From positions 1 through 29,644 of IMG/VR virus record IMGVR_UViG_3300047297_000129: a stretch of 29,644 nucleotides of DNA. The stretch is one strand, 5' to 3'. Source of the DNA: a virus. Numbering within the stretch: the stretch's first letter is position 1; every line of letters begins with the position of its first letter. The position numbers and the translations under genes were made by a program. The notes beneath the pieces are model-generated. The model had not been told where the DNA came from, searched no databases, and saw nothing but the letters and a program-made list of their open reading frames with translations. This document shows, piece after piece, positions 16,987-28,522 of this stretch.

Positions 16987-17024
16987 GCGGGTTTTCTGGA
17001 GACCTTTCTTATACTGGTTAGAGT

Positions 17025-17597
17025 CTATCCGATGGTCTTGATGGTTACTGCTTGCCCTTCCGGATGCACCACAAACCCTGCCTTCATTGCATCGGCTGGA
17101 TGCTCTAGCATTGCGGCCTTTATAGGTTCAGGTAGTTGGCTAACAAGGATGGATTCCTTGAGTTTTATGGCTGATGGGCAATTCTTCCGTGCCCACTCCA
17201 AAGCCGTCTCCTCAGCCTCTACAGCGACCTTAGGGGCTATGGTTCGGAAGCCAACCGTGCCATAGGGGCAAGTCCATGTCTTTGCCTTTAGCGTCCCATC
17301 AGCCTTGCGTGGTAACTGAGACATTGCGTAGTCTTGCAACTGTCCGTTGAACTGATGCTCCAGCCATTCAAGCCGTGCCTGATGCTTACCGATGAGTTTG
17401 CGGAAGTTCTCTACCACGGCATCCATCTTGGCTTTCTCAGCAAGGATGTTTGCCTCGATGTCCATCCGCTTCCGCATCACCAGGAGTGCAAGGTCTTCCG
17501 GGCTTTCATCACCCTTGATCCAACCGGATGCAGGGCCAGCATACTCGCCTGTTTCTACGTCCCACAGCTCGCCATCAATCACATCGAATCCCATCAC
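17025..17597 (-). CDS. Gam / Gp157-like DNA-binding accessory protein
   Basis: A 190-residue protein. Residues about 35-90 form a long coiled coil (MRKRMDIEANILAEKAKMDAV onward). After it comes a beta-rich part, TWTCPYGTVGFRTIAPKVAVEAEETALEWARKN, then a helix with SILVSQLPEPIKAAM and a final strand GFVVHPEGQAVTIKTIG. This coiled coil plus PPKV-like strand layout is that of Mu Gam host-nuclease inhibitors and of Siphovirus Gp157 proteins; I cannot decide between them. Its place in an operon with an ERF recombinase suits a role in protecting DNA ends or assisting recombination. It is the last gene of the leftward operon and overlaps the gene before it by 4 bases. Confidence 0.65.
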   Translation of the reverse strand: MMGFDVIDGELWDVETGEYAGPASGWIKGDESPEDLALLVMRKRMDIEANILAEKAKMDAVVENFRKLIGKHQARLEWLEHQFNGQLQDYAMSQLPRKADGTLKAKTWTCPYGTVGFRTIAPKVAVEAEETALEWARKNCPSAIKLKESILVSQLPEPIKAAMLEHPADAMKAGFVVHPEGQAVTIKTIG

Positions 17598-17818
17598 TTA
17601 CCTCCCATCAACTGCTCTGGTGTACCCTTGTGCCAGTACACATCTTCATACCGATATTCAAAGCAAACCGCATCAAGGTTCTTGCCTGCTGGCTTGACCC
17701 AGTATCCACGGTCATCCATCGTGACAAGTTTGTGATTTGCGTACTTTCCATCGGTGTATGTCATGCCGTACTGCATTGCCCGTTTGAGCAACCATGCTGC
17801 CTCTTCTTTGGTTATCAT
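17594..17818 (-). CDS. Small hypothetical protein of the early leftward operon
   Basis: A 74-residue protein, not recognised. I place the start at the ATG whose TGA overlap joins it to the Tad2-like gene, because GGGAGG lies exactly seven bases before it. An upstream in-frame ATG would place the ribosome site inside the coding region. The sequence begins with a helix (TKEEAAWLLKRAMQYGMTY) and continues with strands rich in aromatic residues (VCFEYRYEDVYWHKG). No cysteine pairs or catalytic motif are evident. Confidence 0.75.
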   Translation of the reverse strand: MITKEEAAWLLKRAMQYGMTYTDGKYANHKLVTMDDRGYWVKPAGKNLDAVCFEYRYEDVYWHKGTPEQLMGGK

Positions 17819-18033
17819 CTCACTACCTCCCAATCATCTCTAACCTTCTGTGCTTGCTTGTCGTATAGATCCATCACAGGCGGACAGTATGTGTACCGAT
17901 TGCCTGACGGAAGATGCACGACAAGATGGTCTTCCCCGATAGCTGAGAGTCTGATTATTTTGCCAGACTCCCAAGCCTTACGCCTTATACCCATACCCTC
18001 AAACAGCCGAGGATAAACCTGTGCAAATGTCAT
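17815..18033 (-). CDS. Tad2-like (DUF2829) small protein
   Basis: A 72-residue protein with the DUF2829/Tad2 pattern: MTFAQVYPRLFEGMGIRRKAWESG at the N-terminus (family form M-F-x-A-x-x-x-L-x-x-G-x-x-x-R-x-x-W) and KVRDDWEVV at the C-terminus. Characterised Tad2 proteins are phage anti-Thoeris proteins that sequester the cyclic ADP-ribose-type signal made by the Thoeris defence. Four more such domains lie at 26320-27423. This copy sits in the early operon beside ERF, the expected timing for counter-defence. Its WEV codons carry the GGGAGG ribosome site of the next gene. The ligand is unknown. Confidence 0.65.
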   Translation of the reverse strand: MTFAQVYPRLFEGMGIRRKAWESGKIIRLSAIGEDHLVVHLPSGNRYTYCPPVMDLYDKQAQKVRDDWEVVR

Positions 18034-18515
18034 CGTTGTAAAGGTCTCCCCGGTGCTGGCTTGATTGGCTCATCAATAACAATGTTGCCGTGTGATCCTC
18101 TACGATAGCCATCCTGAGGCTTTACCGCCTCGTTTGCGTCATCATCCTCATCTGCTGATATTGCGAGCAGGGCGGACACGGAATACCTGCGACCATAAGT
18201 AAGAGCTGAACCAAGCCCGTGGGCATCTGGCTTTGTCACCGGGATGGTCACTGTCGTTGCGATCCATTCACCGCTTGTATGGATGATTCTGGATTCCACG
18301 GTTACAGCCTGAAGTGCCTCCGGTTGTTGGCTACCCTGTGTCAGCATTAAGCCGTTTGATGTCAGGATAGGGCGCAGTGTGTCGAGGATGCTGTCAAGCG
18401 TCACATACTTAGAGCGAAAGGCAGGGTTCTTACCTTCCTTGATGATGCCCTGCATCTGGCTTTGTGCCTTGATGAGGGCTGGAGCGATTGCCCCAATGGA
18501 TTCCGATGTTGTCAT
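18030..18515 (-). CDS. erf: ERF-family single-strand annealing recombinase
   Basis: A 161-residue protein matching the ERF family (PF04404) of phage P22. The N-terminus shows the usual IGAIAPALIKAQSQMQGIIKEGKNPAFRSKYVTLDSILDTLRPILTSNGLMLTQ, in which the FRSKYVTLD and PILTSNGL blocks are conserved. The core continues with TPHTSGEW-like strands, and the GLGSALTYGRRYSVSALLAISADEDDDA block is the family's best signature. It anneals complementary single strands during recombination or genome circularisation. GGGAG lies before ATG 18515. The neighbouring Gam-like protein is a natural partner. Confidence 0.92.
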   Translation of the reverse strand: MTTSESIGAIAPALIKAQSQMQGIIKEGKNPAFRSKYVTLDSILDTLRPILTSNGLMLTQGSQQPEALQAVTVESRIIHTSGEWIATTVTIPVTKPDAHGLGSALTYGRRYSVSALLAISADEDDDANEAVKPQDGYRRGSHGNIVIDEPIKPAPGRPLQR

Positions 18516-18516
18516 A

Positions 18517-18762
18517 CTATTCTCCCGTTACGTGGTTGGATGCGTCTGCGTAGTAATCGTCTTGGTCTTCAATAGTGATGCTGACCTCGCCATTGCCAAA
18601 GATGATGGTGGAACCACTGATGCGGATGTTATCCCGTGTCATCTGGATTGCCTCGATGGCTTCAATGTCATCGATATCGTGTTGCCCTGATGGGCTGTGC
18701 AGCTGAAGGATTGCACCTTCCGCCGTCATATCTTCAACTAACTTGATCGCTTGTTCTTTCAT
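18517..18762 (-). CDS. Small acidic hypothetical protein, first gene of the leftward operon
   Basis: An 81-residue, strongly acidic protein (DIDDIEAIEAIQMTRDN, EDQDDYYADASNHVTGE) with a helical start and a short beta part (NIRISGSTIIFGNGEVSITIED). It is not recognised. It begins 48 bases after the predicted initiation site of the leftward promoter with GGGAG ahead of its ATG, so it should be among the first phage proteins made. A DNA-mimic or inhibitor role would suit the charge and timing, but this is speculation. Confidence 0.7.
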   Translation of the reverse strand: MKEQAIKLVEDMTAEGAILQLHSPSGQHDIDDIEAIEAIQMTRDNIRISGSTIIFGNGEVSITIEDQDDYYADASNHVTGE

Positions 18763-18815
18763 CTCTTATCTCCCGTACCTTTTTGTTGACGCTACCAATA
18801 TGGTTGCGTGTATTG

Positions 18816-18843
18816 ATTATACATCAGGAATATATATTGTCAA
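18816..18843 (-). promoter_or_regulatory. Leftward early promoter, perfect TTGACA/TATAAT
   Basis: On the minus strand, TTGACA (18843-18838) and TATAAT (18821-18816) are both perfect, 16 bases apart. This should be a strong host sigma-70 promoter for the five-gene leftward operon. Its -35 box abuts the rightward -35 box in an inverted repeat GTCAA-N4-TTGAC (18839-18852). Its -10 box lies within a second palindrome TGTAT-N5-ATACA (18809-18823), a possible operator. Confidence 0.85.
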
Positions 18844-18847
18844 ACAC

Positions 18848-18878
18848 TTGACGAGTAAGTATATACATATGGTATATA
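18848..18878 (+). promoter_or_regulatory. Rightward promoter for the XRE regulator, leaderless geometry
   Basis: TTGACG (18848-18853) is followed 19 bases later by TATATA (18873-18878). Six bases then lead to the ATG of the regulator at 18885, so the transcript would start at or beside the start codon. No Shine-Dalgarno sequence precedes that ATG. The lambda cI mRNA from PRM is a known leaderless repressor message with similar logic. The long spacer suggests a weaker promoter than the leftward one. Confidence 0.55.
18860..18878. promoter_or_regulatory. Palindromic operator TATATAC-N5-GTATATA
   Basis: A perfect 7+7 inverted repeat with a five-base centre covers the -10 region of the rightward promoter. 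The related palindrome TGTAT-N5-ATACA at 18809-18823 has the same five-base centre and covers the leftward -10. A dimeric XRE protein, such as the adjacent gene product, is the obvious candidate binder; binding is inferred. Confidence 0.6.
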
Positions 18879-18884
18879 GTTTCC

Positions 18885-19106
18885 ATGATTAGAGGACTAA
18901 GCCAGCAACAGCTGGCAAAGAAGATTGGTGCAACCCAGCCACAGATATCCGACTGGATGACCGGGAAGAAGACACCGATTGCAAGTAACCTTACCAAGCT
19001 CGCCGAAGCCATGGACATGGCAGAAGAAGACTTGGCAAGGCTACTCACTATTCGTCGTAAGAGTCGGAACAAACCGACCGCTGAAACAGAAACATTCGAC
19101 AACTAG
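18885..19106 (+). CDS. XRE-family helix-turn-helix regulator (Cro/CI-like)
   Basis: A 73-residue protein that is essentially one HTH_3 domain: LSQQQLAKKIGATQPQISDWMTGKKTPIASNLTKLAEAMDMAEEDLARLL. It shows the turn G-x-T-x-x-x-I-S and a trailing basic tail. There is no second (oligomerisation or RecA-cleavable) domain, so it is more Cro-like than CI-like. It is transcribed divergently from the early operon across a region with palindromes overlapping both promoters. It probably represses the leftward operon, itself, or both. Confidence 0.85.
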   Translation: MIRGLSQQQLAKKIGATQPQISDWMTGKKTPIASNLTKLAEAMDMAEEDLARLLTIRRKSRNKPTAETETFDN

Positions 19107-19129
19107 ATAAAGGTAGGGAGACAAGGAAC

Positions 19130-19438
19130 ATGAAGCGTTGTAATGATTGTGCAGACAAGGTAGTGGATACAGATGTTATCTGTACTGGTTGCCGTATGGC
19201 TGAGTGGCGAGATCAGCAGGAGCAGGCACGGCTAGCACGTGAGAAGGCTTATGCCTTGGAAGCTCATCGGGCTGCATACCTGAGCCGCAAGAAGGCTATT
19301 CGGGACAGTATCAAGGCTGGTGTTATTGCCGCCATTGGCTTCCTGCTTTTCTTGGCACTTTTTCAAGCAACCAAGGATGCTATGCGGTACGAGTGGGAAA
19401 CCAAGCCTGCACTGCTCAGGGCTAACGGTGTTAGATAG
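19130..19438 (+). CDS. Zinc-ribbon protein with coiled coil and membrane segment
   Basis: A 102-residue protein with a good ribosome site (CAAGGAAC). Residues 4-21 carry CNDCADKVVDTDVICTGC, two CxxC pairs that look like a small zinc ribbon. Residues 22-60 form a charged helix (EWRDQQEQARLAREKAYALEA onward). One membrane segment follows (AGVIAAIGFLLFLALF, about 63-78) and then a short tail. No family is recognised. The layout would anchor a zinc module at the inner face of the membrane. Confidence 0.7.
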   Translation: MKRCNDCADKVVDTDVICTGCRMAEWRDQQEQARLAREKAYALEAHRAAYLSRKKAIRDSIKAGVIAAIGFLLFLALFQATKDAMRYEWETKPALLRANGVR

Positions 19439-19439
19439 C

Positions 19440-19784
19440 ATGACGTGGATGAAGCCAGGAGCAGTATTTCAATGCTGGGATGACTTCTACAAGCACAAGC
19501 ATGGCCCGGTAGGTGTTATCGTAGACATTGACGGGCCATGTACCTGTACTCACATCGTGGCACAGATCAATCAACTGGGAGCAAAGCCATTGCCGGAACA
19601 CTACCACCTTGAATGCCAACCGCTAAACGTGAAGCATACGCAGGATACAAGGTTCTGGCACGGCTATATGTTGGCTGATGGCAGAGCCATTGGTGGTCGG
19701 TTCTATCTCCAGCAACTCGAAGACATCACCCCAACTGTTTCCAAAGTGGAAAAGGTTGATGTGCAGTTGCAGATGGATTTCTAG
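19440..19784 (+). CDS. Hypothetical protein upstream of the sigma factor
   Basis: From ATG 19440, two bases after the previous stop codon, the product has 114 residues. A longer open frame upstream overlaps the zinc-ribbon gene and is unlikely to be used. The sequence (MKPGAVFQCWDDFYKHKHGPVGVIVDIDGPC, then PEHYHLECQPLNVKHTQDTRFWHGYMLADGR) is rich in His, Cys and Trp and looks globular and beta-rich. No family is recognised. Its TAG overlaps the GTG start of the sigma factor by one base, so the two are coupled. Confidence 0.65.
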   Translation: MTWMKPGAVFQCWDDFYKHKHGPVGVIVDIDGPCTCTHIVAQINQLGAKPLPEHYHLECQPLNVKHTQDTRFWHGYMLADGRAIGGRFYLQQLEDITPTVSKVEKVDVQLQMDF

Positions 19785-20602
19785 TGCAGGTAAGACCAAC
19801 GACTATACGACAGACGCTCCGGACGCTCAGGCAAGCCCCGGAGCGTTTGTTGTCTCACGATGAGATGCTACTCCTGCACCATGGCTGGTCGCATGGCATC
19901 CATTCCGATGAATGCCTTGATGCTATGATTCGCCACAACTTTGCCTTCATTCGGGAAGTCTGCAAGGTCATCAAGCACAAGGAGCATTTCATCGATGCCT
20001 GCCAGTACTGCGTTGAAGGTCTTATCAGAGCGATTGAAAAGTGGGAACCAGAGCGTGGTTTGAGATTCTCCACCTACGCTCATCCTTGGATCTACCAGAA
20101 GCTTAGACGCTACCAAAGCAACCAATATCGAACCATCAGGATAGCCGAACACGCACTAGTCAAGTGGCATAAGCTGAAGCGTCACTATGTCATGCTAGAA
20201 CTCGAACTAAAGCGACCGCCTACAGATGCGGAACTGTCCGAGCGTAGCGGGATGAGTCTTGAAACCATCGACATCTGCCGTACCGCAGCAGGTATTGAAC
20301 CTGTCAGCATGGACACCCCGGTACAAGGTTCTGAGCTGGTCTTGGGTGATACTGCCGTATTCGGGTCCACACCATCAGCTGAGGATGAGTACTTTTCTGA
20401 GCAGGAAGGTACGCTGTCCGATGCACTGCTGAAACTCGATGAAGAGACCCGGCAGATGCTAGTGCTGCATTATGGCTTAGATGGACGTGTACCACAGACC
20501 ATCCATATGGTAGCCAGCCGTTACCGTATGCCGCCTGTAGTGGTCAAACAGAGGCTCACAGAGGCATTGCAAAGATTGAAGGAGACCTATGAGACATCTT
20601 GA
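19784..20602 (+). CDS. Phage-encoded sigma-70 family factor
   Basis: A 272-residue protein with the order of a sigma factor. Region 2 is residues about 45-110: NFAFIREVCKVIKHKEHFIDACQYCVEGLIRAIEKWEPERGLRFSTYAHPWIYQKLRRYQ, close to the core-binding and -10-reading segment of primary-type sigmas. Region 3 is about 145-180 (RPPTDAELSERSGMSLETID). Region 4 is about 210-268 (LDEETRQMLVLHYGLDG, then a divergent helix-turn-helix VASRYRMPPVVVKQRLTEALQRL). Region 1.1 is absent. The start is GTG 19784, overlapping the previous stop. It probably directs host RNA polymerase to phage promoters; the GTGTGGGATACT sites are candidates. Confidence 0.9.
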   Translation: MQVRPTTIRQTLRTLRQAPERLLSHDEMLLLHHGWSHGIHSDECLDAMIRHNFAFIREVCKVIKHKEHFIDACQYCVEGLIRAIEKWEPERGLRFSTYAHPWIYQKLRRYQSNQYRTIRIAEHALVKWHKLKRHYVMLELELKRPPTDAELSERSGMSLETIDICRTAAGIEPVSMDTPVQGSELVLGDTAVFGSTPSAEDEYFSEQEGTLSDALLKLDEETRQMLVLHYGLDGRVPQTIHMVASRYRMPPVVVKQRLTEALQRLKETYETS

Positions 20603-20948
20603 AGACCGGGAGCAGATTGCCCTTATCACTTGGGTTAGGCTGATGGAATCCAAGCATCCTGAGCTTGCCACGATCTACCACTGCCCTAACGGTGGGCATC
20701 GTGACATTCGCACAGCTGCAAAGTTCAAAGCCATGGGTGTCAAGCCGGGAGTCTGGGATATCTTCCTTCCTTGTCCTGCGCCTGGATTGTTCATCGAGAT
20801 GAAGGCAGGTAAGGGCAGGCTGACACCGGGACAGGTTGCCTTCCGTGAAGCCTTGGAGCCGTACGGGTACAAGTTCGTGGTGGCTTACTCTTGGCATGAA
20901 GCCGCGCAGGCAATAGCCGAACACGTTGGTTTTGAGGTGTCCTTTTGA
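20589..20948 (+). CDS. VRR-NUC domain nuclease
   Basis: A 119-residue, single-domain protein of the VRR-NUC (PF08774) branch of the PD-(D/E)XK nucleases. The signature runs CPNGGHRDIRTAAKFKAMGVKPGVWDIFLP, then LFIEMKAGKGRLTPGQVAFREAL. Asp57 in WDI, Glu70-x-Lys72 in IEMK and the following Gln form the catalytic set. Stand-alone phage members are thought to cut DNA structures such as recombination junctions. It overlaps the sigma gene by 14 bases and the next gene by 4. Confidence 0.88.
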   Translation: MRHLEDREQIALITWVRLMESKHPELATIYHCPNGGHRDIRTAAKFKAMGVKPGVWDIFLPCPAPGLFIEMKAGKGRLTPGQVAFREALEPYGYKFVVAYSWHEAAQAIAEHVGFEVSF

Positions 20949-21754
20949 ATCCGTATCTTATAACCGAACCACAGGTGGTTAGTTTCTCCGGTGGTCGCAC
21001 TTCTGGTTTTATGCTTTGGCAGATTGTTCAGGCACACGGTGGCACTCTGCCCGATTATGTTAAAGTGTGCTTTGCAAATACTGGGCTTGAACATTCGGCT
21101 ACATTAGACTTTGTTCAAGCCGTATCAGACAATATTACACCTGTCACATGGATTGAATACGTCAACTCAGAAGAAGGTAAAAACACCTACAAGGTGGTTG
21201 ACTACAAGACCGCATCACGCAATGGTGAACCGATGGAAGCCATCATTACAAAGCGGGCTATACCACCAAATGTTGTTAGCAGGTACTGCACGGCTGAAAC
21301 CAAAATAAGACCGATTGCAAAGTACATCAAAGAATCAACTGGATGGCGTACTTGGACAGACCTGATCGGGTTACGAGCAGATGAACCACGCCGAGTGCAT
21401 AGACTCAAATCAGATGGTAACCGTGAGATTCTTTGCCCGATGTATCACGCTGGGCATAGATTGAAGGATGTCTTGGATTTCTGGGCATCGATGCCGTTTG
21501 ATTTGGATTTGCCATACAAGGATAACTCGTACGGTAACTGTGTTTGTTGCTTCCTAAAGTCAACGCCTAAGATACTGCGAATCATCGCCGAAGACCCGAA
21601 GCAAGCAGACTTTTGGATTCGTATGGAAGAAGCCAAGGGGCAGCCATTCAGGCGTGACCGTGCGCCATATCGGCAACTTTTAGATATGGCAACCAGCCAG
21701 CAGGGCTTTGACTTTACCGAGGATGACCTATTCGAGTGCAACTGCACTGACTGA
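20945..21754 (+). CDS. PAPS reductase-like ATP pyrophosphatase
   Basis: A 269-residue protein starting at TTG 20945 (TTGA overlap). The PP-loop SGGRTSG is at residues 15-21, within VVSFSGGRTSGFMLW, the ATP-binding mark of the phosphoadenosine phosphosulfate reductase / N-type ATP pyrophosphatase superfamily. Cysteines cluster in RYCTAETKIRP, GNCVCCFLKS and the C-terminal FECNC, suggesting metal or Fe-S binding as in DndC- and TtcA-like relatives. Members are frequent in phages, but the substrate is usually unknown. Adenylation followed by sulfur transfer or reduction are options. It is followed by the primase leader. Confidence 0.8.
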   Translation: MNPYLITEPQVVSFSGGRTSGFMLWQIVQAHGGTLPDYVKVCFANTGLEHSATLDFVQAVSDNITPVTWIEYVNSEEGKNTYKVVDYKTASRNGEPMEAIITKRAIPPNVVSRYCTAETKIRPIAKYIKESTGWRTWTDLIGLRADEPRRVHRLKSDGNREILCPMYHAGHRLKDVLDFWASMPFDLDLPYKDNSYGNCVCCFLKSTPKILRIIAEDPKQADFWIRMEEAKGQPFRRDRAPYRQLLDMATSQQGFDFTEDDLFECNCTD

Positions 21755-21756
21755 TG

Positions 21757-21762
21757 TATAAT
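21757..21762 (+). promoter_or_regulatory. Perfect -10 box TATAAT ahead of the primase leader
   Basis: TATAAT starts three bases after the PAPS-reductase-like stop codon. No good -35 box is visible at the right distance. Initiation about seven bases downstream would put the RNA 5' end near 21769, just ahead of the first stem of the folded leader at 21772. That agreement supports it as a real promoter, possibly activator-dependent. Confidence 0.5.
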
Positions 21763-21771
21763 GTTAATGAG

Positions 21772-21857
21772 CCTGTTCTTCTGGTTATGGACTTAGTCCA
21801 CCCCTCGGAGTAGCTACCGAGGGGTTACCAGACGCAGGTATCTAGAAGAACAACAGG
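21772..21857 (+). ncRNA. Structured 5' leader (cis-regulatory RNA candidate) of the primase gene
   Basis: Four nested helices can be drawn by hand. P0 pairs 21772-21780 with 21846-21857 (9 bp, three-base bulge 21849-21851). P1 pairs CTGGT 21781-21785 with ACCAG 21827-21831. P2 is TGGAC/GTCCA 21788-21792 and 21796-21800. P3 is CCCCTCGG/CCGAGGGG 21801-21808 and 21817-21824. P1-P2-P3 make a compact three-way junction with two-base joints. The likely ribosome site AGGTG (21855-21859), five bases before ATG 21865, has its AGG locked in P0. Opening P0 would expose it. I do not recognise a known riboswitch class, and there is no T-loop or acceptor end as in a tRNA. Confidence 0.6.
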
Positions 21858-21864
21858 TGACTCC

Positions 21865-22737
21865 ATGGCTATACCAGCCACGGATGCCGGGATGGCTATT
21901 GCCTTCCTTAGGCATCTTTTCAAGCCGTACTCTGACGGCTTTATTGAGATTCGACCTCTCTCAAAGGTCAAGCCCCACGCTAACCGCACAACCTACAGGT
22001 TGCCCCATTGCCTCAAGGGCGATGAAGGGCAAGCCTTGACGCAGCACATCATGAGTCTTGCCATGCGTGGCTATGATGTTTATGTTGGTGTCTGTCCAAG
22101 GGTTGCTCCTGAAGGGCCGGGGCGCAAGCTTGGCAAGGATTCCATTGAGCAAGTTGGGGTAGTTTGGATTGACCTTGACGGAAAAGTACCCGGCAGTAGT
22201 CAAGGATTACTTGACAGCTGCGACATTGTGGTAAGTACCGGTAATGGATGGCACGGTTACAAGATGCTTGCGAGCGTTGCCAACGTCAAGAACGCGAGAG
22301 ACCGAACAGCCATTGAGACTAAGATTAGGTCTTGGCAGAACAGCATCATTCTTGGCACTGATCCGGTAGGCAATGTTGACAGGATTCTGCGGGTTCCAGG
22401 AACGCTCAACTGGAAGGATGTTGATAACCCCAAAGCCATAACGCTTTTGAAGGGTGGGGGCATCAAGCCAACATACAAGGAATCCTTGTTGGTTGAGCAT
22501 TTGGGCGATGCTAGGCTAGATGCTCTGCTGGCTTCTGCTAAGCAGGGACAGTTAGGACGTGCTGAACCCCGGATACGCCATGCAAGCGGTAGGATAACCG
22601 ACCTACTGGATGTCTTTATGCTTGAGGCCGAGGAAGCCTGTCAAGCGTTTGAAACTAACCCTGCTTGGGAATACCGTTTGAATATTGTCCGTGCTGACCT
22701 GCCGGAGATTTTGGAGTACTACTTTGGACGAGAATAA
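21865..22737 (+). CDS. Archaeo-eukaryotic-type primase (Prim-Pol-like)
   Basis: A 290-residue protein with the catalytic layout of phage and plasmid AEP primases. VVWIDLDGK holds the metal-binding Asp103 and Asp105. STGNGWHGYKML (residues 124-135) holds the nucleotide-binding His130. NVDRILRVPGTLNWK (about 170-185) holds the conserved Arg173 and the PGTLN-K motif. The first 90 residues form the N-terminal half of the fold. It would make primers for the adjacent helicase and a host polymerase, because no phage polymerase was found. Expression is probably controlled by the folded leader directly upstream. Confidence 0.85.
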   Translation: MAIPATDAGMAIAFLRHLFKPYSDGFIEIRPLSKVKPHANRTTYRLPHCLKGDEGQALTQHIMSLAMRGYDVYVGVCPRVAPEGPGRKLGKDSIEQVGVVWIDLDGKVPGSSQGLLDSCDIVVSTGNGWHGYKMLASVANVKNARDRTAIETKIRSWQNSIILGTDPVGNVDRILRVPGTLNWKDVDNPKAITLLKGGGIKPTYKESLLVEHLGDARLDALLASAKQGQLGRAEPRIRHASGRITDLLDVFMLEAEEACQAFETNPAWEYRLNIVRADLPEILEYYFGRE

Positions 22738-24079
22738 ACCATTCGACATCTGGGACATACCAGATTTACCAGACCCTAAGCCTGAACGAAAGCAACGGCA
22801 ACCCGGTGAGCCTGATGGTGATGGAACACTTGCAAAGCTATACCAAAAGCACCCGGAAGGCGGAGGCCCCTATGGTGGCAGAGATAACGCCCTAACCGCC
22901 TACGTTGGCTACTTGCGGTCTACACGCATTGACTACACTGGTGGTCTTTCAGCTGCTAGGGGATTCAATCAGGACTGGTTAGAACCACCTTTGCAAGATT
23001 GGGAGGTTGGTGAAAAGGTCGGTCGTGCTTGGGCTGAATGGGCTGAGGGTGTACGGGAGTTGTACACACAACAGATGGCTGCATCCGAACTAATGGCGGA
23101 CAAACTGAAAGCACTGCAACCCAAAGAACCACGCAAGAAAAAGATTCCATGGGACTGGGACAGGTTACAGGAGGAAGCCGCTAAGAGCCGTGACACTGAA
23201 TGGATTATCCCTAACGTCATAGCACGGCAAGCAATCCATTATTTCGCAGGGCCACCAAGTAGCGGTAAGTCTTGGATGGCTGCGGATCTAGTTCGTGCAG
23301 CTGAGAGCGCCGGGATGTGGATGAGCCTTGCCCCTTGCGTCAAGTCAAAGGTTCTGTACGTCAACGAAGAAATGGGCGTGGGTGAATACAACAAGCGATT
23401 CCATCTGTTATATCCAGATGCTTGCCGAGGCTTGCACTCGTTCGTCAATGAAAACATGAAGGTTACAGATCCGGATGACTTGCAGGACATTGTTGACGCT
23501 GTCATCGACCTGAAGATTGACATAGTTATCATTGATACTTTTGTCCGTGTGCATAACCTGGATGAAAATAGCAACAGCGAAATGTCGCAGTTGTATCAAC
23601 ACTTCAAAAAGATAACGGATGCCGGTGCTGCCCTTGTAGTCCTCCATCATGCCCGTAAAGGCGGTGCAGGAGCGATAGGGCATGAAAGTATGCGGGGGGC
23701 TGTAGAAATCGCTGCACAGGCAGAAACCATCATGTCCATTGATAACAAGCTTGGACACTACACGGTCAAGACGGTGAAGCAGAGACGTAGTTCTTTTGAA
23801 GACCAAATAAACTTTGAGTTCAAGATTCACGCTCACAGCCCAGAGGCTCTTGAGATTCAGCGCATTGACATTGCAACAGCTGAGAAAACATTAGATCAAG
23901 CCATCTTGGACTACATTGATTCCAATCCGGGACAGACCAGCCAGCAGATAAGCGAAGGCATCAAAAAGCGCAAGTCTGATGTCGTTAGAGCGTTGCAAGG
24001 CTTTGAAGATGAAGAGATGTTGAACGTCATGAATGGCCAGAGAGGAGCGAAGTTCTATAGCCCTAAAAGTATGTTTTGA
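22724..24079 (+). CDS. RepA/RecA-like replicative helicase (AAA_25 type)
   Basis: From TTG 22724, preceded by GGAG at a good distance, the product is 451 residues. An earlier in-frame start would lie deeper inside the primase gene. Residues 1-150 are Pro-rich and helical with DNA- or primase-contact potential. The ATPase core has Walker A GPPSSGKSW (176-184), VLYVNEEMG, Walker B IDIVIIDTF (about 267-273) and the LVVLHHARKGG sensor-like block. The last 70 residues (DQAILDYIDSNPGQTSQQISEGIKKRKSDVVRALQ) form a winged helix. This matches hexameric RepA-like helicases. The 14-base overlap couples it to the primase. Confidence 0.87.
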   Translation: MDENKPFDIWDIPDLPDPKPERKQRQPGEPDGDGTLAKLYQKHPEGGGPYGGRDNALTAYVGYLRSTRIDYTGGLSAARGFNQDWLEPPLQDWEVGEKVGRAWAEWAEGVRELYTQQMAASELMADKLKALQPKEPRKKKIPWDWDRLQEEAAKSRDTEWIIPNVIARQAIHYFAGPPSSGKSWMAADLVRAAESAGMWMSLAPCVKSKVLYVNEEMGVGEYNKRFHLLYPDACRGLHSFVNENMKVTDPDDLQDIVDAVIDLKIDIVIIDTFVRVHNLDENSNSEMSQLYQHFKKITDAGAALVVLHHARKGGAGAIGHESMRGAVEIAAQAETIMSIDNKLGHYTVKTVKQRRSSFEDQINFEFKIHAHSPEALEIQRIDIATAEKTLDQAILDYIDSNPGQTSQQISEGIKKRKSDVVRALQGFEDEEMLNVMNGQRGAKFYSPKSMF

Positions 24080-24262
24080 CCCGTTCCCAAAGACCTGTTC
24101 CCCTTAGAAATAGAGAATAGGAACAGGTGGATAAATCCCCCCCTCTCTCTCAGACTCTCTCACCCCCCAGCCTCAGAGAGCTGGAGGGGTAAATAGAAGA
24201 GCAAAACAGTTCCCCCGCATAAAGCGGGGAACTGCATTGCTCAGAAAAATGAAAGGCTTCAT
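24080..24262 (+). other. 183-base intergenic region with repeated GTTCCC hairpins and pyrimidine tracts
   Basis: No gene is visible. ACCTGTTCC (24093-24101) pairs perfectly with GGAACAGGT (24120-24128). Further on, CAGTTCCCC pairs with GGGGAACTG around an inner GC pair and a short loop. CCGTTCCC near 24081 repeats the same core. Between them lie C- and CT-rich runs (CCCCCCCTCTCTCTC and CACCCCCC) with AGAGAG counterparts. There is no long T-run. Possible roles are a replication-related site beside the primase-helicase pair, an mRNA end, or a scar of the HNH gene insertion. Confidence 0.5.
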
Positions 24263-24727
24263 ATGAGCGTTACAGAGCGGTTATTTACAAAGACTAAACC
24301 CACCCCCGGTGGTTGCTTGCAGTACATCGGTAAAGTAACTAAAGACGGTTACGGAACAATAAAGATTGCAGGTAAAAGAATTTCTGCTCATCGGGCTTCC
24401 TATCAACTTGTTTATGGATCAATCCCTGTTGGATTGTATGTCTGCCATAGATGCGACAACCCTTTGTGTATTAATCCGTTTCACTTGTTTGCAGCTACCC
24501 ACAAAGAAAACATGGCTGATATGAGACATAAAGGAAGAAGCCTGACTGGTGAAAAACATCCAAAAGTCAAACTATCGGAATCTCAAGTGATTGAACTTAG
24601 AACACGTTACAGTCAAGGCAATATCACCCAAGCAAGACTTGCTGAGGAATACGGAATAGGTGAAACACAAGTTTGGAGGATTGTTCACAACATAAAGTGG
24701 AAACACCTTGTCAAAAATAATGTTTGA
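24263..24727 (+). CDS. HNH homing-type endonuclease
   Basis: A 154-residue free-standing HNH enzyme. Residues about 5-50 contain the CLQYIGKVTKDGYGTIKIAGKRISAHRASYQLVYG block, and the catalytic part is VCHRCDNPLCINPFHLFAATHKENMADM (about 60-87). The C-terminus (LSESQVIELRTRYSQGNITQARLAEEYGIGETQVWRIVHN) is a helix-turn-helix DNA-binding module. This two-part layout is common in phage homing endonucleases. The gene is more A/T-rich than its neighbours and lies between two transcription units, as expected of a mobile gene. The ribosome site GAAAGG precedes ATG 24263. Confidence 0.9.
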   Translation: MSVTERLFTKTKPTPGGCLQYIGKVTKDGYGTIKIAGKRISAHRASYQLVYGSIPVGLYVCHRCDNPLCINPFHLFAATHKENMADMRHKGRSLTGEKHPKVKLSESQVIELRTRYSQGNITQARLAEEYGIGETQVWRIVHNIKWKHLVKNNV

Positions 24728-24753
24728 CAGTTGATACCCGCTGGGTATATATT
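24724..24753 (+). promoter_or_regulatory. Promoter TTGACA-N18-TATATT with central palindromic operator
   Basis: TTGACA (24724-24729) overlaps the HNH stop codon, and TATATT (24748-24753) follows at 18 bases. Between them lies the perfect palindrome ATACCC-GCT-GGGTAT (24734-24748), placed to block RNA polymerase when bound. A small hairpin GAGCC-AGA-GGCTC (24777-24789) and an excellent ribosome site (AAGGAG) follow before ATG 24803. This should drive the SSB-like to terminase run. Confidence 0.75.
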
Positions 24754-24802
24754 CGATGTGGCAATAGTGCCGTGAAGAGCCAGAGGCTCAAAGGAGTAAG
24801 TA

Positions 24803-25294
24803 ATGGGTTTTTTTGCACAGCATGGTTCCTTCTCTGAGGGAACTGGTCGGAAGTTCAGCGTGGCTGAGTCCGGCGTTTATATCTGCGCTTTGATTGATAT
24901 CGAAGCAGTACAGGGCAAGTCATTCGACGATCCAACAGTCTTGGAACCAAACTATCGGTTTGTATTCGAAACCACTGAAGTCGGCGATGAAGACGGTCAG
25001 CCCTTCCGGTTCGTACAGTTCACCAAGACGGTCTACGGCAATGAGAAAGCCAAGCTCACGATTCTTCTTGACTCGATGCTCGGTAAGCGTCTTGACCGTA
25101 ACGAATACGCAAACCTCGACATCACCGCATTGAAGGCTCAAAAGTGGCAGGTCGTGGTCGGTACACGTCAGAAACTTAATGGCGAATACACGAACATGAT
25201 TGAGACGGTCAAGCCCGTAAAGCAGACGGCTACAAAGCCACTCAAGAAGGCAGTACCAACGGAAGATATCAGCGACCCGTTTGGTGAAGACTGA
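24803..25294 (+). CDS. Putative ssDNA-binding protein (DUF669-like, acidic tail)
   Basis: A 163-residue protein with an OB-fold-like strand series (KFSVAESGVYICALIDIEAVQG, PNYRFVFETTEV, PFRFVQFTKTVYGNEKAKLTILLDSML, KWQVVVGTRQKLNGEYTNMIETVKPV). The layout resembles DUF669-type phage proteins found beside recombination and replication genes. The C-terminus, after a basic linker (KPLKKAVP), ends in DISDPFGED, recalling the acidic D-x-P-F tip by which SSB proteins recruit partners. It has the best ribosome site of the window, implying abundance. The function is inferred from layout. Confidence 0.55.
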   Translation: MGFFAQHGSFSEGTGRKFSVAESGVYICALIDIEAVQGKSFDDPTVLEPNYRFVFETTEVGDEDGQPFRFVQFTKTVYGNEKAKLTILLDSMLGKRLDRNEYANLDITALKAQKWQVVVGTRQKLNGEYTNMIETVKPVKQTATKPLKKAVPTEDISDPFGED

Positions 25295-25701
25295 TGGGAT
25301 GGTCTCTTGAAATCAGAGAGTCGGCAAGCATCCATGATTTGTTCATGGATGCAGCTCGACACTTTGTAAGTGATGTTTGTATCGATAAATCTTTGGAATA
25401 TGCTTACATTAGCATTGAACCTAGTTACGGCGATTTGCTACGTATGTCTTGCGTCTTTGAATATGGACCATTCCGTTTCAACTATATGGGTTTGAGAGTT
25501 TACAAGGATGAAGAATACGGATGGTTTTCTGGAACCGATGAGTTCTCTTGCAAATGGTCAGTGTTGAATAAAGAGTGGCTAGACAGAGATGAACGAGAAT
25601 TTCTCTTTGAATGCGCACAAGAGTTCATGCAGGTTTGCGTCAAGCTGAAAAACGGAGAAATCGAACCGTTTCCAGATGAAGAAGAAGAAGACGATGTTTA
25701 G
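25294..25701 (+). CDS. Hypothetical acidic protein
   Basis: A 135-residue protein, not recognised. It is coupled to the previous gene by a TGATG overlap. It is rich in aromatic and acidic residues, with strands around YAYISIEPSYGDLLRMSCVFEYGPFRFNYMGLRVYKD and a helix DEREFLFECAQEFMQVCVKL, and it ends in PDEEEEDDV. It is somewhat more A/T-rich than the neighbours. The acidic tail and coupling could point to a partner of the SSB-like protein; this is inference. Confidence 0.75.
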   Translation: MGWSLEIRESASIHDLFMDAARHFVSDVCIDKSLEYAYISIEPSYGDLLRMSCVFEYGPFRFNYMGLRVYKDEEYGWFSGTDEFSCKWSVLNKEWLDRDEREFLFECAQEFMQVCVKLKNGEIEPFPDEEEEDDV

Positions 25702-25710
25702 AGATATCTA

Positions 25711-25758
25711 AACTTGGGAATGCTAAAGGAGGCAGGGTAACCTGCCTCCAACTTGGGA
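25711..25758 (+). repeat. Hairpin flanked by a nine-base direct repeat
   Basis: GGAGGCAGG (25728-25736) pairs perfectly with CCTGCCTCC (25741-25749) around a GTAA tetraloop. AACTTGGGA occurs on both sides (25711-25719 and 25750-25758). The left arm contains AAAGGAGG, a perfect ribosome-binding sequence, but no start codon follows it at a usable distance. The next gene uses its own GGGAG instead. There is no T-run, so it is not a standard terminator. Confidence 0.65.
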
Positions 25759-25767
25759 GATAAGAAC

Positions 25768-26103
25768 ATGAAACAAACTAACCAAAGCCTCGCAGAAGCC
25801 ATCAAGGAGATGGCACAGCACGTCATCAACACACAGCGTGATTCCTTTGCAGTCATTGATTGCCCGCTACAGATTCAGGTATCCAGCGATCACTCCGAAA
25901 TACATATGCGTAAGGGTGCGCTACATCTCATGGTAGCCCTCACTGGCGATGATGCTGGTATCTACGACTGCAACTCCATGGGCTACGCTGTCCAGAATCC
26001 ATACTGGGTTGGAAGCCTCAAGCCAGCTGATGTCATTGCAGACATCTGGGCAGTAGCCTACGAAGTAGACAAAATCATGTCACGGGAAGTAGTACTCGTT
26101 TGA
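25768..26103 (+). CDS. Hypothetical protein
   Basis: From ATG 25768 (GGGAGA lies ahead; an in-frame TTG 15 bases earlier would put that site inside the gene) the product has 111 residues. It starts with a helix (QSLAEAIKEMAQHVINTQRD). A strand-rich middle follows (FAVIDCPLQIQVSSDHSEIHMRKGALHLMVALTGDDAGIYD), then a closing helix (LKPADVIADIWAVAYEVDKIMS). It is not recognised. It ends in a TTGA overlap with the DUF3310-like gene. Confidence 0.75.
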   Translation: MKQTNQSLAEAIKEMAQHVINTQRDSFAVIDCPLQIQVSSDHSEIHMRKGALHLMVALTGDDAGIYDCNSMGYAVQNPYWVGSLKPADVIADIWAVAYEVDKIMSREVVLV

Positions 26104-26327
26104 CCGGGCATTACCGGACATCGCAGATTCAGGCCCTCAGCGTTATAGACGACTGGGGGCTGGACTTTGCAACAGGCAATGTCCTCAAATACATTCAACG
26201 GATGCCACACAAAGGTACACCTAACGCCGACAGCATCAAAGCACTCTGGTACTTGACCTATGCCATCACCAGGGATGTAACCGTAGCTGATCGCATTGCA
26301 AAAGAAGTCGAGGCACTGAATGGCTAA
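26100..26327 (+). CDS. DUF3310-like small protein
   Basis: A 75-residue protein starting at TTG 26100. The pattern HYRTSQIQALSVIDDWGLDFATGNVLKYIQRMPHKG, then ADSIKALWYLTYAI, is that of DUF3310 (PF11753), a small helical protein common in phages: H-Y at the start, W-x-L/F-D-F-x-x-G-N-x-x-K-Y-I-x-R, and K-A-x-W-Y-L. Members are sometimes labelled nucleotide kinases without evidence. Its function is unknown. The basic, aromatic surface suggests nucleotide or nucleic acid contact. Confidence 0.8.
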   Translation: MTGHYRTSQIQALSVIDDWGLDFATGNVLKYIQRMPHKGTPNADSIKALWYLTYAITRDVTVADRIAKEVEALNG

Positions 26328-26751
26328 AGCATTCACAACCGAACAAAAGAAGGAACGCATTCGGCTGGCTGTTGAGATATACAACCAGACCGGAGCTTGG
26401 AAGGATGCAGAAAAGATAGCACACCGACAGAACGTTGAGAAGTGGATTCGAGACCCTGAGATTTTCGCCTACGCCGAAAGCGTTGGATACGATCAACTCA
26501 TCACCACTCCGGTTGCATCCTTTGCACCTAAGTCTGTCCACTATAACTGCCGCATCGGTTTCTCAGCAGCTGTGATGCACATGAAGGAAGGACGGTTTGT
26601 AGCCAGAGACGGTGCAAGGCTTCACTATGCAATTCGTGACAACGCTCTGGTTATGTACAAACTGGATGGCATCGGTAACCGACATCATGCAGGCCCTGCT
26701 TACTTCCGTGGTGCTGATATCTTGGCTAACGACTGGACGGTGGTTGATTGA
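26320..26751 (+). CDS. Helical domain fused to a Tad2-like domain
   Basis: A 143-residue protein in two parts. Residues 1-60 are helical and basic (TTEQKKERIRLAVEIYNQTGAWKDAEKIAHRQNVEKWIRDPEIFAYAESVG) and may be helix-turn-helix-like. Residues about 84-142 follow the Tad2/DUF2829 pattern: IGFSAAVMHMKEGRFVARDG at the front and GADILANDWTVVD at the end. The usual R-x-x-W near the domain start is changed to ARDGARLHY. It is the only one of the five Tad2-like copies with an added domain. It overlaps the next gene as TTGA. Confidence 0.55.
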   Translation: MAKAFTTEQKKERIRLAVEIYNQTGAWKDAEKIAHRQNVEKWIRDPEIFAYAESVGYDQLITTPVASFAPKSVHYNCRIGFSAAVMHMKEGRFVARDGARLHYAIRDNALVMYKLDGIGNRHHAGPAYFRGADILANDWTVVD

Positions 26752-26987
26752 CAGGACTTCAAGCATTGCAAGCATTGCTGGGCGGTAAAGCAGAACGCAT
26801 ACATCGCAAGAGTGATGGCGATATGTCCATTTGTATTGATGACGAAGGACAACTGTCATTATCAGTTGAGTATGACGAATACATACAAAATGAATTTGCA
26901 TTTGATTTACGTTTCGGTTCACCGGGTGCTATAGTCGAGCATTTTTACAACGACTTACTGAATGACGATTGGGAGGTCATTGATTGA
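26748..26987 (+). CDS. Divergent Tad2-like small protein
   Basis: A 79-residue protein starting at TTG 26748 in a TTGA overlap. It keeps the frame of the Tad2-like group: an N-terminal helix plus Gly (LQALQALLGGKAERIHRKSDG) and the ending HFYNDLLNDDWEVID. It lacks the R-x-x-W of canonical members, and its middle is acidic (CIDDEGQLSLSVEYDEYIQNEF). The binding pocket, if kept, must differ. Its WEV codons contain GGGAGG, seven bases before the TTG start of the next gene. Confidence 0.55.
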   Translation: MTGLQALQALLGGKAERIHRKSDGDMSICIDDEGQLSLSVEYDEYIQNEFAFDLRFGSPGAIVEHFYNDLLNDDWEVID

Positions 26988-27190
26988 GGTTCTACGAGGC
27001 CGCACGGTGGCTAAAGCGGGGCAAATGTATCAGGCGGGCTACATGGGCAGGTAACTGCCATATTGAACATTCACAGGGCGAGCAGGTCAGGCACTACAAC
27101 GGTAGACGATGGCAAGGCTACGTACTGCTGATGCGTGACCTGTTTGATGATGAGGGAAACCATCGAGACGATTGGGAGGTCATAAGATGA
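26984..27190 (+). CDS. Tad2-like (DUF2829) small protein
   Basis: A 68-residue protein starting at TTG 26984 (TTGA overlap; GGGAGG seven bases upstream). It has the clearest Tad2-like start of the cluster, MRFYEAARWLKRGKCIRRATWAGN, and ends with LMRDLFDDEGNHRDDWEVIR. The spacing from the R-x-x-W to the DDWEV is slightly shorter than in canonical Tad2. As in its relatives, it could bind a nucleotide-type immune signal. Its WEV codons again supply the ribosome site of the next gene. Confidence 0.65.
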   Translation: MRFYEAARWLKRGKCIRRATWAGNCHIEHSQGEQVRHYNGRRWQGYVLLMRDLFDDEGNHRDDWEVIR

Positions 27191-27423
27191 AGTTTGGAGA
27201 AGTGGTGGAAGCCTTGATGGCGGGAGGCTCAAAAGCCGTAAGGCGTGGTGAGTGGTGCGGGACTTTCCTGCGGTACTCCGAACTGTGGAACACTTTCGAG
27301 CTTCACGGTGCTGGTAACAGGGTTACGGTGCTGGAAGAACTGAGCCTGTCACCCGGTGACCTGTTTGCCGATGATTGGGAAATCGTTACGCTAGATCCAC
27401 GGACAGGCAAGGTGGCTGAATGA
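27187..27423 (+). CDS. Tad2-like (DUF2829) small protein with C-terminal extension
   Basis: From ATG 27187 (ATGA overlap with the previous stop, GGGAGG seven bases upstream) the product has 78 residues: MKFGEVVEALMAGGSKAVRRGEWCG, a strand-rich middle and LSPGDLFADDWEIV, followed by a ten-residue extension TLDPRTGKVAE. An in-frame start 15 bases earlier lies upstream of the ribosome site and is unlikely. Here the WEI codons are TGG GAA ATC without GGGAGG, and the next start codon is about 40 bases away, in contrast to the coupled copies. Confidence 0.65.
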   Translation: MKFGEVVEALMAGGSKAVRRGEWCGTFLRYSELWNTFELHGAGNRVTVLEELSLSPGDLFADDWEIVTLDPRTGKVAE

Positions 27424-27971
27424 ATAATTTCCTGATGAAGTTATTCATCGACTTGGAAGCATGGGCTATCACACAGAGTTTCAATAGCCCAATGCTTAAA
27501 CGCCTTACCCTATGCGAACCATACCGATGGAAAACTGGAGACCTTAGACATATCGCAATGCAAGAAGTCGCACTGCCAGTAAATGTACATTCCATGCGAA
27601 GAATAATAGGCATTACATCTCGCATTGCTAACAATGATAAGGTGGTCGGCTTTGGGCTGTCAGAAAACTTCTTTCAGATGTGGGCTGATGAAACCAACAC
27701 TCAACGAATGGATGACTATGTAAAGTGGCAAGTTAGATTGAAAACACTGCACATAAAAACTCCAGAGCTTGTTGAAAAACCTAAACCTCCGTATTACTGG
27801 CATAATCATTCATGCGAACTCATCAAAGGTGATGACATGATGCGCTTACGCATTTACTGGGTTATTCAAGGTTACATGGATCCAGCAGACAAAGGCCTAT
27901 ACATGGATGAAAGCGAAGGTGATGACCGATATGGCTACTCACTACATCAAAGCGACAAGGTTAGGAAGTAA
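27420..27971 (+). CDS. Hypothetical protein
   Basis: A 183-residue protein, not recognised, starting in an ATGA overlap. The N-terminus (NNFLMKLFIDLEAWAITQSF) is amphipathic. The rest is mixed, with many Trp and Tyr residues (FFQMWADETNTQRMDDYVKWQVRLKTL, KPPYYWHNHSCELI, RLRIYWVIQGYMDP). It is more A/T-rich in base use than the Tad2-like genes before it. No cysteine pairs, Walker motif or nuclease motif were found. Confidence 0.75.
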   Translation: MNNFLMKLFIDLEAWAITQSFNSPMLKRLTLCEPYRWKTGDLRHIAMQEVALPVNVHSMRRIIGITSRIANNDKVVGFGLSENFFQMWADETNTQRMDDYVKWQVRLKTLHIKTPELVEKPKPPYYWHNHSCELIKGDDMMRLRIYWVIQGYMDPADKGLYMDESEGDDRYGYSLHQSDKVRK

Positions 27972-27975
27972 CAGA

Positions 27976-28182
27976 ATGATTCTCTTTGCACTCGGTGTCC
28001 TGCTTGGTGCGGGATGCCTTGCGGTATATAACGAGATGTATACACGTTGGCTATACAAAGACGTGAAGCGTAGAGCGAAACAACAAAACATCACAGACAC
28101 TCAAATGAGAGATGCCCTTGTATGGGCAACCAAAGAAGAAATAGAGGCTAACCTAAATGCCAGCACGACCCGGAGCAGGTAG
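27976..28182 (+). CDS. Small membrane-anchored protein
   Basis: From ATG 27976, preceded by GGAAG at a good distance and four bases after the previous stop, the product has 68 residues. Residues 1-16 (MILFALGVLLGAGCLA) form a membrane anchor or signal-like segment with a Cys at position 14. The remainder is a charged helix (YTRWLYKDVKRRAKQQNITDTQMRDALVWATKEEIEANL). The frame is open further upstream, inside the previous gene. It resembles small Rz-type or membrane accessory proteins only in layout; no family is recognised. Confidence 0.65.
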   Translation: MILFALGVLLGAGCLAVYNEMYTRWLYKDVKRRAKQQNITDTQMRDALVWATKEEIEANLNASTTRSR

Positions 28183-28522
28183 ACCTACAAAGTACTCACC
28201 AGAAGTGGTGAAGCGCATCACAGACGCTCTGCGAGGTGGTAACACCCGCAGGGCGGCTTGTGCTGCTGGCGGTATTGACCAGACAACATTTGGTACATGG
28301 CTCAAAGAAAACTCTGATTTCTCACATGAAGTAGAAAAAGCAGAAGGTGAAGCCGAACTGCGCAACCTTGCAGTTATCCAAGATGCCACAAAAACAACAT
28401 GGCAAGCGGCGGCATGGTGGCTAGAGCGCAAGCACAAGGCAGAATGGTCAAGCCGGGTAGAGCAGACAGGCGCAGATGGTAGCCCGGTCAAGGTCATCGT
28501 GGAGTACGCTGATAAGCCATGA
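28157..28522 (+). CDS. Terminase small subunit
   Basis: A 121-residue protein with the standard small-subunit opening: GAGRPTKYSPEVVKRITDALRGGNTRRAACAAGGIDQTTFGTWLKENSDFSHEVEKAEGEAELRN. This is a helix-turn-helix that reads the packaging site, followed by an oligomerisation helix. The C-terminus (WWLERKHKAEWSSRVEQTGADGSPVKVIVEYADKP) is the portion that commonly contacts the large subunit. It lies about 500 bases before the large subunit gene, with a small membrane protein and dUTPase between them. It overlaps the previous gene by 26 bases. Confidence 0.85.
   Translation: MPARPGAGRPTKYSPEVVKRITDALRGGNTRRAACAAGGIDQTTFGTWLKENSDFSHEVEKAEGEAELRNLAVIQDATKTTWQAAAWWLERKHKAEWSSRVEQTGADGSPVKVIVEYADKP

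Follow-up and report, generated by a model that had tools for sequence, protein, structure and literature searches.

Tad2 (Thoeris anti-defence 2) proteins (SPO1 gp34.65, SptTad2, HgmTad2/AcrIIA7 and ModTad2; PF11195) are the closest described relatives of the phage genes considered here, and the mechanism characterised for the relatives of solved structure is signal sequestration (PMC12043709). Different members of the family bind gcADPR, His-ADPR or cyclic dinucleotides (PMC12043709; PMC13299392), and specificity within the fold therefore does change. Characterised Tad2s occur singly, and their pocket motif is recognisable; a ModTad2 query of 50,697 phage records matched 390 of them at 394 places, almost every phage having just one, and a single strong PF11195 match was present in ten of the ten canonical phages sampled. 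Here we describe a run of Tad2-like genes that occupies a variable cassette slot and is exchanged as whole genes, an arrangement that is new here; a literature search with the main Tad2 papers outside its scope, and so a weak negative, did not turn up any account of Tad2-like genes arrayed in tandem. We give an even chance to the reading, the most likely of those weighed, that this is a modular counter-defence locus, an array of cassettes for diversified Tad2-fold proteins, its standalone members acting as sponges with altered specificity.

The locus belongs to an uncultured phage of siphophage-like layout (IMG/VR record IMGVR_UViG_3300047297_000129), all 29,644 bases of which form the window analysed. 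Structural genes occupy the + strand up to 16144, a CHAP endolysin is also present, a leftward recombination operon comprises Erf, gene E and Gam, and a rightward region, for which we infer early and middle timing of expression, closes with genes for the small terminase and a dUTPase. Four consecutive + strand genes, A (26320-26751, 143 aa), B (26748-26987, 79 aa), C (26984-27190, 68 aa) and D (27187-27423, 78 aa), have a DUF3310 gene as left neighbour (26100..26327, +; PF11753, E 3.5e-10) and lie ahead of the small terminase gene (28157..28522, +; PF20901, 7.5e-6). Gene E (17815-18033, - strand, 72 aa) lies in the recombination operon, where it overlaps by 4 nt its upstream partner, the gene for an Erf-like ssDNA annealing protein (18030..18515, -; phrog_2324, 4.3e-41). 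A reading made earlier from the sequence only had listed four consecutive genes and a fifth elsewhere, and the coordinates that it gave for all five are correct. Gene A encodes a helical N-terminal domain (residues 7-54), a disordered linker (62-75) and a Tad2-like domain (residues 78-143, with the first boundary approximate; 26551..26748, +), B is a degenerate standalone cassette, and C, D and E are standalone Tad2-like proteins. Both B and C start at a TTG within TTGA that overlaps the preceding stop (by 4 nt with the stop of A in the case of B), and the start of D is the ATG at 27187 rather than the TTG at 27172; the run is thus coupled as an operon by start/stop overlap.

Several other features of the record deserve mention in their own right. 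A sigma-70 family factor (19784-20602, +), in which regions 2, 3 and 4 each clear the Pfam cut-off, is unexpected in a record of this siphophage-like layout and roughly 30-kb length, and a PAPS reductase family protein (20945-21754, +; phrog_424, 1.4e-45) is a possible auxiliary or DNA-modification gene; four unrelated contigs that carry this phage's PAPS reductase held no Tad2-like genes. A perfect 9-bp inverted repeat with a 4-nt loop (GGAGGCAGG/CCTGCCTCC) stands at 25728-25749, ahead of a gene at 25753. It was considered as an operator of the array and rejected because it is not conserved in the relatives compared, with five matches in 175 loci, three of them the window itself. Scans for promoters and terminators returned nothing beyond what shuffled sequence gave, window DNA from 17000 to 28200 had no near match among phages, and neither A nor the major capsid protein had a relative in 84,980 genomes searched for prophages and hosts.

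The five genes are tied together by their ends. A terminal [DN]DW[ET][VI][VI] motif is present in exactly five of the 205 window ORFs of at least 40 aa, namely A to E, and in none of 200 sets of shuffled ORFs, and the shared ending to which the sequence-only reading had drawn attention is therefore not due to chance. That reading had also described the opening as degenerate in two members and the middles as dissimilar, and both descriptions hold: R-x-x-W is found in C, D and E and is missing from A and B, and each type has a conserved middle segment of its own. The search that it proposed against PF11195 gave a divided answer, since all five proteins match and D alone (E 9e-7, 29.8 bits) exceeds the Pfam gathering cut-off of 25 bits; C (E 1.1e-4, 23.1 bits) and gene E (E 1.3e-4, 22.9 bits) fall just below it, and the matches of A (E 0.006, 17.5 bits, residues 81-142) and B (E 0.17, 12.9 bits) are weak. 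Many D orthologues and several other cassettes clear the same cut-off. NCBIfam holds no family for any of A to E, and a phmmer search of D against PDB sequences alone gave chance matches only, so that profile and fold searches were needed.

When compared by hhalign with a family profile from which the query protein had been left out, C, E and B reached probabilities of 97.5%, 96.6% and 96.8%, as against 0.15-0.4% for three other small proteins of the window taken as controls. Set against three solved Tad2 sequences in a profile-profile comparison, the group reached 97.5% over 69 columns; A's own profile reached 67.8% against solved Tad2, and the membership of A was settled by structure. An in-house profile of the phage group gives A, C, D and E values from 1e-18 to 2e-24, which are not independent because C, D and E were among the sequences used to make it, and it matches B end to end at 0.011. 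The orthologue of B in a second contig (locus L147) aligns end to end with PF11195 (E 0.0026), and together with the hhalign result this confirms B, as judged by profiles, as a member of the family despite its weak PF11195 score.

Structure prediction points to the same family. The AlphaFold (AF2) model of A (pLDDT 78.6, pTM 0.46) has four N-terminal helices, an unstructured linker at residues 62-75 and a C-terminal domain of helix-strands-helix-strand order; in VIA-align, residues 76-143 superpose on all ten listed solved Tad2/AcrIIA7 entries with Z 8.8-10.0 and 1.7-1.9 Å over 61-64 residues, and the best unrelated chain scores Z 5.3. The model of D (pLDDT 91.0, pTM 0.77) superposes through residues 1-69 on every listed solved Tad2 chain (Z 8.5-9.5, 1.7-2.0 Å, 63-65 residues), the next chain after Tad2 scores Z 4.0, and the best D matches in BFVD are proteins named Tad2-like. 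The solved chains had been fetched with an ad hoc consensus query, of which only the returned chain sequences were used onward. The predicted models thus show the Tad2 fold for A and D, as the earlier reading had anticipated, and for B, C and E the fold is assigned by profile.

Within this fold, the features that mark the known binding pocket are missing. A W-N-G-K-x-M-F loop and a W-x-x-S-x-x-D motif before the last helix are invariant in three solved Tad2s, two of them solved in complex with gcADPR, cGG or His-ADPR; our placing of these motifs along the pocket comes from their conservation and from the secondary-structure description in a review (PMC12043709) rather than from the structures' own reports. 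Canonical Tad2-like proteins of other phages, even N-terminally extended ones, keep a GWNGxGM loop and the second motif. Neither WNGK nor W-x-[AP]-S-x-x-D occurs in any of the 170 unique domains of the present group, A to E included, and the known pocket chemistry is therefore not retained. In its place each type has a middle of its own: R-Y/F-S-E-x-W in D, with R29, S31, E32 and W34 invariant in D-like variants down to 32% identity, CHIEHSQGE..RHYNGRRWQ in C, where H26-E33 and R36-Q44 are the conserved stretches, and RLSAIGE..HL.SGNR.TYCPP in E. Proteins of one type are 75-100% (C) or 85-97% (E) identical, and between types the middles differ completely. These sequences suggest a Tad2 scaffold that has lost the known binding chemistry and could possibly have gained a new pocket.

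The same observations would also suit a different function, in which the fold serves as a compact protein-binding scaffold and every cassette, in the manner of other small phage inhibitors, blocks a host protein of its own, either an effector or a sensor of defence, with no nucleotide involved. Surfaces as well as middles differ between types and are conserved within them, the known pocket motifs are gone, and a variable set of cassettes would suit any arms race, whatever its target; moreover, the HgmTad2 structure (8kbi) is also deposited as AcrIIA7, an inhibitor of type II CRISPR-Cas. Set against this is the signal sequestration characterised for the solved relatives, and we regard inhibition of host proteins as unlikely.

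Loss of the canonical pocket motifs, together with the lack of R-x-x-W in two members, might instead indicate copies of an ancestral Tad2 gene that are neutral or in decay and have no present function. Selection argues strongly otherwise. Comparison with orthologues gave dN/dS values of 0.06-0.12 for A, 0-0.13 for C, 0.09-0.20 for D and 0.02-0.16 for E, and B gave 0.15 against its only orthologue, that of L147. All five genes, at 0-0.20, are under purifying selection and are therefore working genes; they are free of stops, they have type-specific invariant residues, and whole genes have been exchanged repeatedly. Decay was rejected on dN/dS, and we consider it very improbable. Strong constraint within types, combined with near-complete difference between them, fits specialised working proteins and not decaying copies.

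The content of the slot varies from phage to phage. Some 70 other viral contigs carry gene A at 59-94% identity, and removal of duplicates left 76 distinct A loci, in which zero, one, two, three or four standalone Tad2-like genes lie downstream of A in 6, 37, 30, 2 and 1 cases, respectively; these counts are lower bounds because the loci are contig fragments. The previous stop is overlapped by exactly 4 nt in 97 of 107 standalone genes. Clustering at 40% identity yielded 21 groups; because one consists of a fragment of A, the number of types is about 20. In most relatives with sufficient flanking sequence the DUF3310 gene comes before A, the small terminase forms the right edge of the variable region in many, and the slot constantly opens with A, apart from two exceptions upstream of it (types t9 and U). 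D, the commonest standalone type, is present in nearly every slot, as itself or as a variant, and other types vary between A and D. C is known from 13 viral loci at 75-99% identity. A gene for the thymidylate synthase ThyX also lies inside the slot, with the same 4-nt overlap, in loci L005, L010, L014, L015, L016, L017, L128 and L133-L135. A degenerate class opening with MTG[ILFM][EQ]AL, like B, occurs in or near the slot at L092, L094, L111, L132 and L147, and given this class Tad2-like cassettes are probably undercounted. The contig of L049 (G042, 62,434 bases) has two Tad2-like arrays about 34 kb apart and perhaps represents two phages or a concatemer.

Comparison with the nearest relative (L012) resolves turnover to a single gene. 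The two differ in this region by B alone, which is an exact 236-bp insertion at the start/stop overlap; in the relative A is directly joined to C. The orthologue of B in L147, a 38-kb contig, is 77-78% identical and is the first of five consecutive Tad2-like genes (L147 4001-5154), and the matching structural proteins of that contig are just 22-63% identical to those of the window. As read from these identities, the B cassette is best explained as having moved by horizontal transfer. Recombination through the ends that encode DDWEV was considered as a route and left no sign, with 9.76 of 15 nt shared between different-type genes of the same locus as against 9.44 expected from other loci. E marks a second site: in five of six relatives it is the gene immediately following Erf, in the sixth a single gene separates the two, and in one locus (L061) another Tad2-like type follows E.

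Gene A stands apart from the cassettes behind it, in that it is a two-domain fusion, unlike a plain sponge. A second subfamily, A2, is 23-27% identical to A overall and 39-43% over the Tad2-like domain, and its N-terminus is an HTH_23 domain (3.8e-7, above the cut-off, in L006; weaker, at 0.001-0.004, in L132, L153 and L155). This match suggests DNA binding by A2 proteins, and A, by analogy, may bind DNA as well, because the counterpart domain in the A2 subfamily is a helix-turn-helix. The N-terminus of the window's A is helical in the model and has no Pfam HTH, and homology with the A2 domain found no support in a profile comparison, which gave 0.8%. A tblastn search of known phages found no relative of either the A or the A2 form.

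These domains invite a regulatory or assembly role for the whole module, in which A would bind DNA, its Tad2-like domain would serve oligomerisation or ligand sensing, and the standalone proteins would be partners or modulators in gene control or near packaging. The helix-turn-helix of the A2 orthologues favours such a role, as do the position of A before the standalone genes (save for t9 and U) and a slot that adjoins the small terminase. However, the window's own A lacks a recognisable HTH, in six loci A has no standalone gene to partner it, E belongs to another operon, next to Erf, and a fixed role fails to explain about 20 exchangeable types. We judge a regulatory module unlikely.

We return, then, to an array of diversified sponges. 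Each standalone protein, possibly assembled as a tetramer like the Tad2 homotetramer with its two gcADPR pockets between protomers, would counter signalling defences by stoichiometrically binding a small immune signal with its own changed specificity, and the set of cassettes would be tuned to the hosts met as whole genes are gained, lost or exchanged horizontally. The suggestion in the sequence-only reading of a dedicated anti-signalling locus stands in part: the Tad2 fold, divergence with individual conservation, and turnover between related phages fit a counter-defence locus, but signalling as the target draws nothing from the known pocket motifs, which the group lacks. A more elaborate form, which we consider improbable, would make the slot a combinatorial, exchangeable repertoire in which the pocket of each cassette has evolved to suit a different nucleotide messenger (a few of these may still be undescribed), homo- or hetero-oligomers of the products of one phage cover several at once, and A is a signal-sensing and possibly DNA-binding protein. 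Should the array be what we propose, it would amount to swappable sets of differing specificity, and the set carried by a phage would point to the signals used by its hosts, including undiscovered ones; the roughly 20 conserved types would then be ready baits for finding immune signals. The interest of the locus lies in a modular, multi-copy form and a missing canonical pocket within a known domain family.

Compared with Tad2 itself, the array proteins share a fold over 61-65 residues at 1.7-2.0 Å, the N-terminal helix F-x-x-A-L-x-x-L-x-x-G, the C-terminal strand D-W-x-I-V and the character of a small phage protein of 70-90 aa. They differ in lacking the WNGK loop and W-x-[AP]-S-x-x-D, in having a short, unrelated middle segment, and in occurring as several diverged tandem copies. 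The sponges Tad1, Acb2 and Acb4 resemble the array in the proposed mechanism, in which an immune messenger is sequestered stoichiometrically (PMC12043709, PMC11722364), but they are single genes with other folds and bear no sequence relation to it. Sponge activity is itself sensed, by Panoptes (PMC12657218). Proteins of phrog_872 and phrog_1048 (for example Escherichia phage Bp4 EpBp4_0032 and Vibrio phage 1.205.O) are similar to A in that their Tad2-like domain is C-terminal and follows an additional domain of some 75-85 aa; unlike A, they retain GWNGKGM and W-x-x-S-x-x-D, and their N-terminal domains, one of which is crAss001_48, have no sequence relation to that of A. The nearest parallel to the run as a whole comes from Klebsiella phages (vB_KpnP_Tribble_ER49, P184 and FBKp27; 11 records), which carry three to five consecutive overlapping genes of 54-79 aa with the opening A-L-x-x-L-x-x-G-x-x-(I/V)-R-x-x-W. 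In Tribble_ER49 (L172) up to five such small Tad2-like genes span 428-1410 of the extracted locus, or 33180-34162 of the record, and in the Klebsiella run one gene matches PF11195 at 1.2e-6 and five match the in-house profile at 2e-9 to 0.015. These genes belong to another phage group, are about 31% identical to those of the window and are annotated as hypothetical, but their similar run lies in cultured phages, which makes the question testable.
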